Source: Xanthobacteraceae bacterium
Lineage (GTDB): Bacteria > Pseudomonadota > Alphaproteobacteria > Rhizobiales > Xanthobacteraceae
NCBI GenBank assembly: GCA_019241285.1
Contig: JAFAXD010000300.1
Span: 1-41,072, forward strand
Direction of reading: 5' to 3'
Length of the DNA: 41,072 nucleotides
Positions 9,169-41,072 of this stretch are shown in pieces; the stretch's first letter is position 1, and the number at the start of each line of letters is the position of its first letter. The position numbers and the translations under genes were made by a program. The notes beneath the pieces are model-generated. The model was not told where the DNA came from and made no database searches. It saw nothing but the letters and a program-made list of their open reading frames with translations.

Positions 9169-10140
9169 TCACGAGCTATTTGCTCGTGCGCGATCTTGCA
9201 CGATTCTCCGGCGCTCGCGGCGCGGCCCATCGGCGCTTCGGTATTTGATGTGCTCGATGAAGGCGCGCAGCTTGGGCAGGAGCTGACGTTTGCTCGGGTA
9301 GTAGAGGAAAACACCCGGCGTCGTGATGGCAAAGGATGGGAGCAGCGCTTGCAATTGCCCATTGGCGATCGGCGCTCGGGCGAGGGGGTGTGGCACCTGC
9401 ACCAGCCCCAAGCCTTGCATCGCCGCTGCGAGAAGGGTCGGCACGTCGTGCGCGATGAGCGGTCCAGCGACGATGACCTCGAGCGTCTTGTTGCCGTCAA
9501 CAAAGCGCCACGGGGCTATCGAGCCGTCCGCGCGGCGCAGGCGAAGGCAGGCGTGATCGCGCAGATCATCGATGCGCTCCGGCCGCTTGCGCGCGCGCAG
9601 ATAATCCGGGCTGCCGACCACCACCAAAGGGAACGGTGGCGTCAGCCGCACGACCACCATATCGGGGGCGATGAACTCGCCGAGACGAATGCCGGCGTCG
9701 AAGCCTTCTGCCGCGATATCCACCGACTCCTGGGTTGCGGCAATTTCCAGCTCGATCTCTGGATAAGCCTGGTGGAAGGAGGCGAGTATCGGCTCCAGCA
9801 GCAGCGTGACGACGGGTCGGGGTACCGTGATCCGCAACAGTCCGGTCGGACGCTGCCCCAGGTCGCGGGCGACTTCGCTCGCGGCTACGAGCTCCTCGAA
9901 GGCGGGCTTTGCCCGCAACAGGAAGCGCTCTCCGGCTTCGGTCAGGCCGACACTGCGCGTGGTGCGGATGAAGAGCGCTGCGCCGATGCGCGTCTCCAGC
10001 GCGCGCACGGCTTGGCTGATCGCTGATGGCGTGACACCAAGCTGCGCCGCCGCTCTGCGAAAGCTGCGGTGCTGAGCAACGCTCAGGAACGCCTCGATGC
10101 CGTCCAGCGCGCCTTGTCTGACTGTGAAGTTTTGCTTCAT
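9169..10140 (-). CDS. LysR family transcriptional regulator
   Basis: 323 residues with an N-terminal helix-turn-helix ('RSFRRAAAQLGVTPSAISQAVRALETRIGAALF', residues ~25-57) and a standard effector domain ('GLLRITVPRPVVTLLLEPILASFHQAYPEIEL'). The C-terminus is extended by an Arg-rich tail ('DGPRRERRRIVQDRAR'). It lies tail to tail with the monooxygenase (13 bp) and 87 bp divergent from the methyltransferase, so the methyltransferase-MFS operon is its most likely target. Confidence 0.92.
   Translation of the reverse strand: MKQNFTVRQGALDGIEAFLSVAQHRSFRRAAAQLGVTPSAISQAVRALETRIGAALFIRTTRSVGLTEAGERFLLRAKPAFEELVAASEVARDLGQRPTGLLRITVPRPVVTLLLEPILASFHQAYPEIELEIAATQESVDIAAEGFDAGIRLGEFIAPDMVVVRLTPPFPLVVVGSPDYLRARKRPERIDDLRDHACLRLRRADGSIAPWRFVDGNKTLEVIVAGPLIAHDVPTLLAAAMQGLGLVQVPHPLARAPIANGQLQALLPSFAITTPGVFLYYPSKRQLLPKLRAFIEHIKYRSADGPRRERRRIVQDRARANSS
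9170..9188. terminator. Short hairpin at convergent gene ends
   Basis: 'cacgagc-tattt-gctcgtg' is a perfect 7-bp inverted repeat at the very end of the LysR gene and just past the monooxygenase stop. It lacks a U-run, so it is at best a weak bidirectional terminator. Confidence 0.3.
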
Positions 10141-35302: not shown

Positions 35303-38296
35303 TCAATGCGGGCACTTCGGCTGTCCGGGTCCGCCGCACGCGGGCTTGCCGGGGGGCGCCGGCCTGGCCGCCGGCGGAGGCGGAGCCGGCCGAGGCGGCG
35401 GCGGTGCTGCCGCATGCATTGGTGGTGGTGGCGGCGGAGGTGCCGCGTGCACGGGTGGCGGCGGCGGCGCAGCGCGCACCGGCGCGGGAGGCGGGGGCGG
35501 TGGCCGGGCGGCGATCGCCGGCGGCGGAGATGGGGGCTTCGCCGCGGGTGCAGGCGGCGCTGGTGCATGTGAGGGCGCGACATTCGCCAGCGGCGGCGGT
35601 GGCGCATGGGTTTGCGGTGCCGGCGGCTTTGGCGGGATCACGGCTGGCGGCGCGTGCGGCGGCGCCGGAGCTGCCGTCGGCGGCGCATGCCCAGAAGGCA
35701 ATGCTGCGCTCGGCAGCGCGCCTGGCGGCGGCGCGTGTGGTTGACCCGCACCAGCGGGCGGGGCGGGAGGCAAGGTTGCGCTGGGAGTGCCCCCCGGCCC
35801 GGGAGGATGGGGGATCGCAGCGGGCGCCGGCAGCGTGTGGGCCGCGCCAGGCGTCGTGCTCCCGGGCGTGCCGGGATGAACCTGGGGGGCCGCTGCGCCT
35901 GGGCCTGGCAAGGCCGCCGTAGGTGATGTGCCTGGAGCAGGCGGCTGACCCGGCGCCCCAGGCGTCGGCAAGGCGTGACCTGCAGGGGCATTGGCCGTCG
36001 CACTGTTTGCCGGCGCGCCTGGCTGGCCGGGCGCGGGATGTCCTGGTTGTCCGGGGGCTCCAGGTGTCCCAGCGGCTGGGTTGGCGCCTGGTGCCGGGGG
36101 CTGACCGGCCGCTCCAGGAGTTGGCAAAGCATGCCCTGCCGGAGCATTTGCAGTCGCGGTGCTTGGCGGTGCGCCCGGCTGGCCGGGGGCGGGATGTCCC
36201 GGTTGTCCGGGGGCTCCAGGTGTTCCAGCGGCTGGCGTGGCGCCTGGTGCCGGGGGCTGACCGGCCGCTCCAGGGGTTGGCAAAGCATGGCCTGCCGGAG
36301 CATTTGCAGTCGCAGTGTTCGGCGGTGTGCCAGGCTGCCCAGGGGCAGGATGTCCCGGTTGTCCCGGAGCTCCAGGTGTTCCAGCGGCTGGCGGCGCGCC
36401 CGGTACCGGCGGCTGACCGGCGGCTCCGGGAGCCGGCAAGGCATGGCCTGCAGGGGCATTGGCGGTCGCAGTCGTTCCCGGGGCGCCGGGTTGCCCGGGA
36501 GTCGGATGGGTTCCTTGGCCAGGCGCTGCAGGTGCGCCGGGCGCGCCTGGCGTGGTTGGGCCAGTTGCTGCGGTCGGGCCGCCGGTGCGGGCGGCCACGT
36601 TTGCCTTCGCTGCAATCGATGGCGGCAGCGATGGACCGACTGTCGCCGGGGCGGTGGCAGCCGCCGGGGCTGGAGCAGCCGGAGCACCTGGTGCCGGCGG
36701 AGCGGCAGGTGGGGCAGCGGCAACCGCCGAGATCGGTTGTGTCGTGCTCTGTCCACTCGGCGTTTGGATCGTCACGTTGTTAGTGGTGTTGTTGACGATC
36801 ACCGTGTTGTGCACGTTGTTGTAGATGATGTTGTTCGGCGGAGGCGGCGCGATGTAGGGCGGCGGCTGCACATAGGCGGGAACCGGCTGGTAGACCGGAA
36901 TCGGCAGCACGAACAAGCCAACTGGCGGTGGTGGTGGCGGCAGCGCCACCCAGAACGGGGGCGGCGGCGCCAGGAAGACCACCGGCGGCGGCGGCGGCGG
37001 TGCAAACGCAAATACCGGATCATAGAACGCGAGCACCGGCCGATCGACGAACACGACTTCGGCGGGCGGCGGCGGCGGCACGTCATAGGCCATCATCTGG
37101 AACGTGGGCGGCGGCTCGAACGCGGCCGAGAGCTCGGCCAACCGGCGCCGGCAATCGTAAACATGCGGGCCGCGCGGATAGCGGCGCAGATAGGACCAAT
37201 AAGCGTCCGGCGTGTTGGCGATCCAGGTCCGGCGCCAGGTGATTGCCTCGCGGCGCGCCGCGATGATGGCTTGCACGCGCGGCGCCATCGGATCATCCGG
37301 GTAGGCAGCGACGAAATCCAGGTAGCCTTGCAGCGTGTCGCGTTCCAGTGCGGCCGCATAGGCGTCCTGGGAGCCAAGATCACGAATCGGCCGCGTGCGC
37401 ATCTCCTGTACCTGTTGGGCGGGGACCTGCGGCGGCGGTGCATCCGGCGCGCGTTCGAAGAACTGGAACTGGGCGAGGATGTTGGCCGATTGCCATGGGA
37501 CTTCGGCGCCCTTCGTCATTTCATTGACGCGCAGGCGCACCCGGTCAAACACGTCCTTTGGCGACAGGCCGCCCTCGCGAATCATTTCCGCGAGCGCCTG
37601 GGCGTAGGCGCCGTAAGGTCCATCGCCATCTGGCGCTACGGTTCCGGGCGCGGCATTGAATGCGTACAGCATGCCGGGCTCGGCATCGACCAAGGCGAGC
37701 CCGCCGGCGAGCGGCTGGCCAGTTTTCACGAACGGATTGGCGCGGCCGGCGTCCAGCACCACCATGCTGGCCTTGAGTTTGAGCGCGGCAAGCGGGCGCG
37801 TGTAGTCGGTGACCCGCACCGCCTCGAGCGGCACATCGCTTGCCTGCGCAAGCTTGGCATCAATCGGGACGTAATAGTTCTCGCCTTCGAGCTGCACGCC
37901 ATAGCCCGCGAGATAAATGAAGGCGACCGTGTTCGGGCCCGAGCTCTGCGCCTTGCTGAGGAAATCGCGCATTGCCTGGCGCAGCGAGTCTTGATCGAGA
38001 TCGCGCGCGCCGGCGACGTCAAAGCCCGCGGCCTGCAAAGTCTGTGCGATCAGGCCGGCGTCGTTGGCCGCGGTCTTGAGCGCACCTGCCTGATAGCCCG
38101 CGTTGCCGACCACGAGGGCAATGCGCTTTTCCGCACCGTCGGGTGCGGGTGGTGCTGGGGCTGCTGCAGGTGCGGCCGGCGGAGGCGCGGCTTCCACCGC
38201 GAGGTTCTGAGCGGAAGGCCGGGAGTTCTGCGCGGCAACCAAGCCGATCGTCGCGAACACGCCGAGGGTAACCAACAGTCCGAGGTACTTTGTCAT
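35303..38296 (-). CDS. Secreted pseudo-caspase with proline-rich collagen-like tail
   Basis: About 997 residues from the ATG at 38296; the ORF-track start at 38824 would run through the HAMP gene. A signal peptide ('MTKYLGLLVTLGVFATIGLVAA') precedes a short Pro/Ala linker and a caspase-fold domain (~57-280: 'KRIALVVGNAGYQAGALKTAANDAGLI'). The catalytic His motif GHG is GYG ('YLAGYGVQLEGENYYVPID', Tyr ~132) and the Cys motif DAC is DAG ('VVLDAGRANPF', Gly ~184), so it cannot be a cysteine protease. A small helical repeat follows ('LQGYLDFVAAYPDDPM'), then poly-Pro stretches, an Asn-rich segment ('NNIIYNNVHNTVIVNNTTNN') and a collagen-like tail with 52-residue repeats. Likely a scaffold in the envelope. 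Confidence 0.85.
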   Translation of the reverse strand: MTKYLGLLVTLGVFATIGLVAAQNSRPSAQNLAVEAAPPPAAPAAAPAPPAPDGAEKRIALVVGNAGYQAGALKTAANDAGLIAQTLQAAGFDVAGARDLDQDSLRQAMRDFLSKAQSSGPNTVAFIYLAGYGVQLEGENYYVPIDAKLAQASDVPLEAVRVTDYTRPLAALKLKASMVVLDAGRANPFVKTGQPLAGGLALVDAEPGMLYAFNAAPGTVAPDGDGPYGAYAQALAEMIREGGLSPKDVFDRVRLRVNEMTKGAEVPWQSANILAQFQFFERAPDAPPPQVPAQQVQEMRTRPIRDLGSQDAYAAALERDTLQGYLDFVAAYPDDPMAPRVQAIIAARREAITWRRTWIANTPDAYWSYLRRYPRGPHVYDCRRRLAELSAAFEPPPTFQMMAYDVPPPPPAEVVFVDRPVLAFYDPVFAFAPPPPPPVVFLAPPPPFWVALPPPPPPVGLFVLPIPVYQPVPAYVQPPPYIAPPPPNNIIYNNVHNTVIVNNTTNNVTIQTPSGQSTTQPISAVAAAPPAAPPAPGAPAAPAPAAATAPATVGPSLPPSIAAKANVAARTGGPTAATGPTTPGAPGAPAAPGQGTHPTPGQPGAPGTTATANAPAGHALPAPGAAGQPPVPGAPPAAGTPGAPGQPGHPAPGQPGTPPNTATANAPAGHALPTPGAAGQPPAPGATPAAGTPGAPGQPGHPAPGQPGAPPSTATANAPAGHALPTPGAAGQPPAPGANPAAGTPGAPGQPGHPAPGQPGAPANSATANAPAGHALPTPGAPGQPPAPGTSPTAALPGPGAAAPQVHPGTPGSTTPGAAHTLPAPAAIPHPPGPGGTPSATLPPAPPAGAGQPHAPPPGALPSAALPSGHAPPTAAPAPPHAPPAVIPPKPPAPQTHAPPPPLANVAPSHAPAPPAPAAKPPSPPPAIAARPPPPPPAPVRAAPPPPPVHAAPPPPPPPMHAAAPPPPRPAPPPPAARPAPPGKPACGGPGQPKCPH
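35920..36530 (-). repeat. 156-bp tandem repeats in the pseudo-caspase gene
   Basis: An anchor such as 'gcaaagcatggcctg' recurs at 35968, 36124, 36280 and 36436, exactly 156 bases apart. Each unit encodes about 52 residues of the form 'TATANAPAGHALPTPGAAGQ' plus 'GTPGAPGQPGHPAPGQPG'. Three units are nearly identical and the outer edges are degenerate. Such repeats are prone to length change. Confidence 0.9.
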
Positions 38297-38622
38297 ATTA
38301 TGCCCCACGGGAGAGCCCATGCCTATCAGTACACGGCAAGGGCGCTGAATGTTCTCTGAATGGACCGCGTCAACAATGCGGCGAGACGGGGGCATTTGAC
38401 CTCGCTGGACTTGCAAAACTTTTATTTTGTCGCGCGCGGAACCGATTGCCTCTTTGTGCGTTTTCAGCGTCAGCCGGGGTCTTCCTTGGGGCATTCGCGT
38501 ATCCAGGGGAAAGGAAGGCCTGCGCGGCTGCGCGCTGCGAGTAATCCGATGCTCCTGGCGTGCTTCGTCCGGTCCTTTCACCGCCGCCAGATACCTGTCG
38601 GCGATCCGAACCAGGATGCGCA
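38297..38622. other. Divergent intergenic region, pseudo-caspase / poly-HAMP
   Basis: 326 bp between two head-to-head starts. I find no gene. On + a weak promoter-like pair is visible, 'ttgacc' at 38396 and 'tttatt' about 18 bases on, inside a T-rich patch. The two genes may be controlled from here together. Nothing else stands out. Confidence 0.4.
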
Positions 38623-41072
38623 ATGCAATCCCCACCCCAAGCTGCCGAAGTTCCCTCCCATACCGATGCTCCCGCTCTCCACAATCCCGGCAATGGCGCC
38701 AACGGCAAATCCGCCTTCGAGTTGAAGGATCTGCTGCATGCGCTGCAAGCCGTGCGGGTTGGCGATTTTTCGGTGCGCCTTGCCGGCGACCACCTGGGAA
38801 TCGAGGGTAAGATAGCCGACACATTCAACGAGATCGTCACCGCCAACGAGCGGATGGCGCAGCAGCTTGAGCAAATCGGGCAGATCGTCGGCCGTGAAGG
38901 CAAGACGCGCCAGCGCGTACGGCTCGGGCTCTCGAGCGGCGCGTGGGGCGAAATGGAAACCTCCATCAACGTGCTGATCGATGATCTGCTGTGGCCGACT
39001 CGCGAAGTGACGCGCGTGATCGGCGCCGTCGCCCAAGGCGATTTGTTGCAGACCGTAAAGCTCGATGTCGAGGGCCGGCCGCTCAAGGGCGAGTTCCTGC
39101 AATCGGCGATGATCGTCAACACGATGATCAAACAGCTCGGCGTGTTCACCTCGGAGGTGACGCGCGTCGCCCGTGAGGTCGGCACCGAGGGCAAGCTCGG
39201 CGGCCAAGCCCAGGTGCCGGAAGTGACCGGCGTGTGGAAGGACCTCACTGAAAGCGTCAACTCGATGGCCAGCAACCTGACCGCTCAGGTGCGCAACATC
39301 GCCGACGTGACGATCGCGGTCGCCAACGGCGACCTCTCCAAGAAGATCACCGTCGACGTGCGCGGCGAAATCCTGCAGCTCAAGGAAGCCATCAACACCA
39401 TGGTGGACCAGCTGCGCTCATTCGCCTCCGAGGTGACGCGCGTGGCGCGCGAGGTCGGCACCGACGGCAAGCTCGGCGGCCAGGCGATCGTGCCCGGTGT
39501 CGCCGGTACCTGGAAGGACCTGACCGACTCGGTCAATGCCATGTGCGGTAACCTGACCGCACAGGTGCGCAACATCGCGCAAGTCACGACCGCGGTCGCG
39601 CGCGGAGACCTGTCGCGCAAGATCACCGTCGACGTGCGCGGTGAGATTCTCGAACTCAAAGACACCATCAACACGATGGTGGACCAGCTCAACGCGTTCG
39701 CGTCGGAAGTGACGCGCGTGGCGCGCGAGGTCGGCACCGAGGGCAAGCTCGGCGGCCAGGCGCAAGTCCCCGGCGTAGCCGGTACCTGGAAAGACCTGAC
39801 CGACAGCGTCAACTTCATGGCCGGCAACCTGACCGCCCAGGTGCGCAACATCGCCGACGTTGCGACCGCAATCGCCGGCGGCGACTTGTCGAAGAAGATC
39901 ACCGTCAACGTCAGCGGCGAAATCCTGCAGCTCAAGGAAACCATCAACACGATGGTGGACCAGCTCAATGCGTTCGCCGGCGAGGTGACGCGCGTTGCGC
40001 GCGAGGTCGGCACGGACGGGCGGCTCGGTGGTCAAGCCAATGTGCTCGGCGTTGCCGGCACTTGGAAGGATCTCACCGACAGCGTCAACTCGATGGCCTC
40101 GAACCTGACCGCGCAGGTGCGCAACATCGCCGAAGTCTCAACCGCCATCGCCAACGGTGACTTGTCGAAGAAGATCACCGTCGATGTGCGCGGCGAAATT
40201 CTCGAATTGAAGGACACCATCAACACGATGGTGGACCAGCTCAACGCCTTCGCCGGCGAGGTGACGCGCGTTGCGCGCGAGGTCGGCACCGAAGGCAAGC
40301 TCGGCGGCCAGGCGATTGTGCGCGGCGTCGCCGGTACCTGGAAAGACCTGACGGACAGCGTCAACTCGATGGCCTCGAACCTGACCGGCCAGGTGCGCAA
40401 CATCGCCGAGGTGGCGACCGCCGTCGCGCAAGGCGATTTGTCGAAGAAGATCACCGTCAACGTCAGCGGCGAAATCCTGCAACTGAAAGAGACGCTCAAC
40501 ACGATGGTCGACCAGCTCAACGCGTTCGCGGCGGAAGTCACGCGTGTCGCGCGCGAGGTCGGCACCGAGGGCAAGCTCGGCGGTCAAGCCGTGGTCCCGG
40601 GCGTCGCTGGCACCTGGAAGGACCTGACCGACAGCGTCAACTCCATGGCTGGCAACCTCACCGCCCAGGTGCGCAACATCGCCGAGGTCGCGACCGCCAT
40701 CGCCGGCGGCGACCTCTCGCGCAAGATCACGGTCGACGTGCGCGGCGAAATCCTGCAGCTGAAAGAAACCCTCAATACGATGGTCGATCAGCTCAACCGG
40801 TTCGCCGGCGAGGTGACGCGCGTCGCGCGCGAGGTCGGCACCGAAGGACGTCTCGGCGGCCAAGCGAACGTGCCGGGCGTCGCCGGGACCTGGAAGGATC
40901 TGACCGACAGCGTCAACTCCATGGCCGGCAATCTGACCGCCCAGGTGCGCAACATCGCCGAAGTGACGACGGCGGTCGCGCGCGGTGACCTGTCGCGCAA
41001 GATCACCGTCGACGTGAAGGGGGAAATCCTCGAACTGAAGAACACCATCAACACGATGGTGGACCAGCTCAA
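38623..41072 (+). CDS. Poly-HAMP signalling protein (hybrid kinase-like), N-terminal part
   Basis: Open from the ATG at 38623 to the window end, so the ORF track omits it. The stop nearest upstream in frame is at 38542. The first ~174 residues have no signal peptide or membrane helix and contain degenerate HAMP-like sequence ('[17 protein letters not shown]', '[20 protein letters not shown]'). From 39145 a 92-residue unit repeats at least seven times: '[18 protein letters not shown]', '[14 protein letters not shown]', '[12 protein letters not shown]', '[19 protein letters not shown]', 'TINTMVDQL'. This is the tandem HAMP array of Nik1/Os-1-type soluble histidine kinases. A kinase and receiver domain probably follow outside the window; that is inferred. 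Confidence 0.9.
39145..41072 (+). repeat. 276-bp tandem HAMP repeats
   Basis: Units begin at 39145, 39421, 39697, 39973, 40249, 40525 and 40801, each exactly 276 bases after the last, and the seventh runs into the window edge. Identity is high at DNA level. Variation is concentrated at a few positions, such as 'VDVRGE' versus 'VNVSGE' and 'ILQLK' versus 'ILELK'. Confidence 0.95.

Follow-up and report, generated by a model that had tools for sequence, protein, structure and literature searches.

The gene at positions 35303..38296 of the window (the whole stretch of 41,072 nucleotides analysed here, from contig JAFAXD010000300.1 of a Xanthobacteraceae bacterium) encodes a predicted exported Tyr-Gly pseudo-orthocaspase of 997 AA, which is almost certainly a dead orthocaspase of the Rhizobiales Tyr-Ala clade. 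Its best explanation, favoured with moderate confidence, is that of an envelope-exported member of this clade which would bind a basic ligand without cleaving it. The kept fold, the dead site, the pocket acids, purifying selection and the conserved tail ends are computed results. Evolutionarily kept dead proteases are a good hunting ground for binding functions, and members of this clade occur commonly in legume symbionts and in soil bacteria related to them.

The gene is identified by its translation, its PF00656 match and its homologues. It is located on the minus strand, as are all features described below unless otherwise stated, with the ATG at 38296 and the stop ending at 35303. Translation confirmed the coordinates, strand and length given in a preliminary description of this DNA. 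Peptidase_C14 (PF00656) is the sole Pfam domain. It covers residues 57-275 (E 8.7e-34; 117.6 bits for a cut-off of 21.4) in a single stretch, which corresponds to profile positions 1-230 of 233, while an NCBIfam search of the protein identified no domain. The best 30 homologues share 63-74% identity with the window protein over the first 400 AA. The N-terminus (MTKYLGLLVTLGVFATIGLVAA, followed by Q), read by eye from the translation, resembles a Sec signal peptide (predicted for residues 1-22, 38231..38296, with cleavage between VAA and Q). The protein is therefore probably exported, as previously proposed. The opposite strand carries an overlapping ORF of 794 residues (35975-38359), most plausibly explained by the high G+C content of this region. 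The protein was also considered as an anti-phage defence system, a candidate dropped because no PADLOC model matched it at E<=0.01.

Alignment with HC paralogues places Tyr132 (codon 37901..37903) at the catalytic His position, where the window reads LAGYGVQ and the HC paralogue YAGHGLQ, and Gly184 (codon 37745..37747) at the catalytic Cys position (LDAGRANPF versus LDACRDNPF). Both catalytic residues are thus replaced, in agreement with the preliminary description. The latter had also raised the possibility that a His and a Cys might be supplied from other positions. Residues 57-280 include zero His and zero Cys, the only Cys residues of the protein being C382, C987 and C995. Conservation was analysed in 113 distinct homologues scoring >400 bits, or 114 sequences with the window. 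The Cys position is occupied by Ala in 112 of them and by Gly in two (the window and Methylobacterium haplocladii), and never by Cys or Ser. Since none of the 113 homologues keeps the Cys, proteolytic activity among close relatives, another point raised earlier, appears improbable from these alignments. The His position is more variable (Tyr 100, His 8, Gln 3, Arg 1, Val 1, Phe 1). Mesorhizobium homologues (L123, L131, L142, L146, L147, L152, L157, L158, L160, L166 and L168) carry His, Gln or Arg at this position; in Mesorhizobium the His site drifts and the Cys site remains Ala.

The Cys position uses each of the four synonymous Ala codons, and the median pairwise dN/dS is about 0.29, indicating that the loss of the Cys is old and has been maintained. 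Conservation reaches 98% or more at approximately 100 positions within residues 58-399. The exact GYG/DAG pair, for which a search among homologues had been suggested, was found only once more, in M. haplocladii. It therefore represents a small departure from the Tyr-Ala dyad, by replacement of Ala with Gly, and not a separate kind.

The pseudo-p20 domain (approximately residues 57-280; 37457..38128) adopts a caspase fold in an AlphaFold model built from an alignment of 81 sequences (pLDDT 94, pTM 0.92), which supersedes a poor earlier structure prediction from 18 sequences (pLDDT 55.7). Together with the PF00656 match, this model substantiates the well-kept caspase p20-like domain reported initially. 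The PDB structures closest to the model are chains of MALT1 paracaspase (3v4o: TM 0.79 on the target, E 1.2e-13), followed by caspases. The following region (residues 281-400; 37097..37456) is conserved, forms helices in the model and shows a dN/dS similar to that of the p20 domain.

In a sequence alignment with MALT1, Asp79 (codon 38060..38062) and Asp182 (codon 37751..37753) correspond to the D of VDVYEL and the D of LLDMC, respectively. MALT1 cleaves after Arg, and these two Asp residues line its S1 pocket. Both acidic residues are invariant in 113 of 113 homologues, a pattern compatible with a pocket that binds basic peptides and does not cleave them. As a working principle, such binding is a serious, if tentative, possibility; the invariance of the two acids may instead reflect folding. 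A counterpart pair, Asp95 and Asp211, is found in a trypanosome metacaspase (PMC6426788). With Ala or Gly at the Cys position in 114 of 114 sequences and invariant pocket acids, the view that catalysis was lost while the fold was kept under selection is upheld, and "selection for binding, not cleavage", as it was first worded, appears a reasonable inference.

In the tree, the window protein falls among Tyr-Ala members, on the same fork as Methylobacterium sequences including the other Tyr-Gly example (support 90, not starred). A group of 129 rows (SH-aLRT 99) is devoid of any HC member and unites all of the sequences analysed above with remoter ones of the Tyr-Ala, Tyr-Ser, Tyr-Thr and His-Ala types; this is a quick tree with some long branches, on which finer claims are unsafe. 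Compared to the dyad of the Rhizobiales Tyr-Ala group, the Tyr matches and Gly replaces Ala. Klemencic et al. 2019 (PMC6426788) had described pseudo-orthocaspases of Rhizobiales that combine a Tyr-Ala dyad with a long C-terminus. The window protein belongs to this large group as a divergent member, so that the combination first regarded as unusual for the family had already been published. Literature searches found no reported function for the clade, and for the Rhizobiales group they turned up neither a mutant nor a phenotype. We know of no ligand, partner or phenotype for this group.

The prolonged C-terminal tail comprises the 597 residues after position 400 and has no Pfam match. The poly-Pro and Asn-rich regions mentioned in the preliminary description were both found in the translation. 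Its "collagen-like" tail was not: the longest Gly-X-Y run reaches 4 triplets, a length that 198 of 2000 shuffled tails also reached (near chance), no Pfam collagen model matches the protein at E<=1, and none of the homologue tails examined carries a run of more than 6 triplets. A bacterial collagen-like protein is thus ruled out. The stretch concerned (35930..36472) corresponds to a 156-bp tandem repeat detected by Tandem Repeats Finder, with 3.5 copies encoding Pro/Ala/Gly-rich units of 52 residues. Judged from its sequence, the tail appears to be a Pro-rich linker with two conserved end motifs.

The first of these elements, LPxPxFVPIPxxVxPPxYIAPPPNNIIFNNIHNTTVIN (36749..36916), includes the Asn-rich block PPPNNIIFNNIHNTTVIN and is supported by pattern, profile and alignment. 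The pattern occurs in 93 of 98 tails and most of the other five carry a recognisable form. When a profile of the block was run against the window genome, the window gene was the sole significant match, and the remoter subfamilies and HC paralogues compared showed no such block. The second element is a C-terminal Cys pair (C-x7-C-P-H, residues 987-997; 35306..35338). A C-x(2-8)-C motif is located at the extreme C-terminus of 85 of the 98 tails, several of the others being truncated or frameshifted; its two Cys are usually the only ones of the tail, and the pair is also present in some distant subfamily or HC paralogue sequences. Linker length and composition differ between homologues, with 301-865 residues among the tails examined, a few of which are cut or frameshifted. 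In L124 (Bradyrhizobium centrolobii) and G162:C397 the frames are masked, frameshifted or split; these copies are perhaps decaying or misassembled at the tail repeats. No mention of the Asn-rich block or of the terminal Cys pair was found in the parts of PMC6426788 consulted. Both elements offer handles for experiments.

In many Bradyrhizobium-type genomes the pseudo-orthocaspase gene lies between dnaE and rpsB, and in other carriers, including the window, it is located elsewhere. The gene order dnaE, pseudo-orthocaspase, rpsB, tsf, pyrH, frr, uppS, cdsA, dxr was observed at L049, L053, L057, L058, L060 and L064-L074 (dnaE and rpsB were identified by Pfam; tsf, pyrH, frr, uppS, cdsA and dxr were named by reading). 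On its upstream side, the rpsB contig of the window genome (G000:C488, end near 10076) extends only about 145 bases beyond the rpsB match, and a second copy may occupy the dnaE-rpsB site beyond this contig end. The neighbours of the window gene are an SDF-family symporter gene and a divergent multi-HAMP gene. The latter (38560-41070, plus strand) includes seven tandem HAMP stretches and runs past the window end; a gene matching it strongly also lies close to one other homologue (L052), arranged differently. Across the clade, the gene neighbourhood revealed no shared neighbour and no pointer to a pathway.

Besides the window gene, the window genome has three C14 genes, encoding an HC orthocaspase, a Tyr-Ala form bearing TPRs and a Phe-Ala form. 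The intact HC orthocaspase gene is directly upstream of the TPR-bearing Tyr-Ala pseudo-orthocaspase gene, on the same strand (G000:C94:5187-8328; L001, L004), and the two might encode an active/inactive pair.

Following Sec export, the p20 domain of the window protein would be located in the periplasm or on the outer surface, where its retained acidic S1 pocket would hold an Arg- or Lys-bearing ligand uncut. The helical region 281-400 would add a protein-protein surface and the length-variable Pro/Ala linker would provide reach. The Asn-rich block and the terminal Cys pair, which probably closes one disulphide loop, may represent conserved distal attachment or interaction ends. We infer that the protein is exported, that its acidic pocket binds a ligand and that the linker and end modules contribute in these ways. 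Its likely role would be related to stress, as a binding or scaffold protein in the cell envelope. It is also conceivable, but doubtful, that the clade as a whole constitutes a widespread, mostly non-photosynthetic Rhizobiales envelope receptor or scaffold. Its dead pocket would capture basic peptides, and an Asn-rich, disulphide-closed distal module at the end of a long disordered arm would dock to an envelope component.

Other explanations were weighed against that of a ligand-binding envelope protein. The window protein could regulate the active orthocaspase of its genome, as a dimer partner or a decoy, in the way cFLIP-L does for caspase-8. Dead caspases with regulatory functions are known from animals and trypanosomes (PMC6426788) and the window genome does encode one HC orthocaspase, adjoining the TPR-bearing Tyr-Ala pseudo-orthocaspase. 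However, the window gene is on another contig, unlinked to the HC gene, and the same source considers pseudo-variants to be probably independent, many cyanobacteria having a pseudo-variant alone; such a regulatory role is unlikely. If the p20 domain served as no more than a structural spacer, or if the gene were decaying, function would reside in the tail only. The long tail with its conserved ends and the existence of some split or truncated copies (L124, G162) are consistent with this, but the p20 and helical regions are strongly constrained (~100 positions of residues 58-399 at >=98%, dN/dS ~0.29, invariant pocket acids), making it quite unlikely. Residual catalysis of a type other than that of a Cys protease, through Tyr132 or an unlisted group, is extremely unlikely. 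Although Tyr is common at this position (100 of 114 sequences), it can be replaced by His, Gln, Arg, Val or Phe, Ala or Gly occupies the nucleophile position, and the domain is free of His and Cys.

Klemencic et al. 2019 suggested that pseudo-orthocaspases are related to photosynthesis and claimed that among Alphaproteobacteria the pseudo-variants are restricted to photosynthetic organisms; their survey observed them in alphaproteobacterial orders that contain phototrophs (PMC6426788). This was examined for the window clade, a carrier being defined by a match of >=56% identity in the family sample or E <= 1e-85 in the order sample. In the family sample, reaction-centre genes were identified in 7 of 60 carriers compared to 18 of 140 non-carriers (Fisher p 1.0), 53 of the 60 carriers being without them. 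The order sample gave 6 of 37 compared to 54 of 261 (Fisher p 0.66), p-values which are merely indicative in both cases because the samples consist of related genomes. Moreover, the window genome (92.7% complete) has no reaction-centre genes, and Mesorhizobium and Rhizobium are among the carriers. The published claim as worded does not hold for the window clade, for which a photosynthesis-related function is very unlikely. Two prior readings, the collagen tail and the photosynthesis role, are thereby corrected.

As a probably exported, possibly ligand-binding dead orthocaspase, the window protein resembles most directly the Rhizobiales Tyr-Ala/Tyr-Ser group in the available account of PMC6426788. 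They share a p20 apparently without p10 (judged, for the window protein, from its single Pfam stretch), the replacement of both catalytic residues with Tyr at the His position, a kept acidic pocket and a prolonged C-terminus without identifiable domain. It differs in having Gly rather than Ala at the Cys position, and its clade departs from that account by the Asn-rich block, the terminal Cys pair and carriers that are mostly non-phototrophs. The Tyr-Gly dyad is shared with SyOC of Synechocystis sp. PCC 6803 (sll0148), a presumed dead orthocaspase and the one studied Tyr-Gly protein found in the literature, whose knock-out tolerates oxidative stress better (PMC7889975). Unlike the window protein, SyOC is cyanobacterial and the sole orthocaspase of its genome. 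The two dyads probably arose separately, since the window Tyr-Gly sits inside the Tyr-Ala clade (in a tree without SyOC). Within the same genome, the HC paralogue (G000:C94:5187-5861; 35% identity) has the same fold and the same helical region after the p20, but carries His and Cys and a short tail with neither Asn block nor terminal Cys pair. MALT1 paracaspase (3v4o) provides the closest solved fold and two S1-pocket Asp at equivalent places, although it is eukaryotic, active, equipped with death and Ig domains and only 18% identical. Finally, by their description (PMC6426788), cFLIP-L and the trypanosome TbMC4 may be likened to the window protein as caspase folds that lost catalysis and kept a function, both being eukaryotic regulators.
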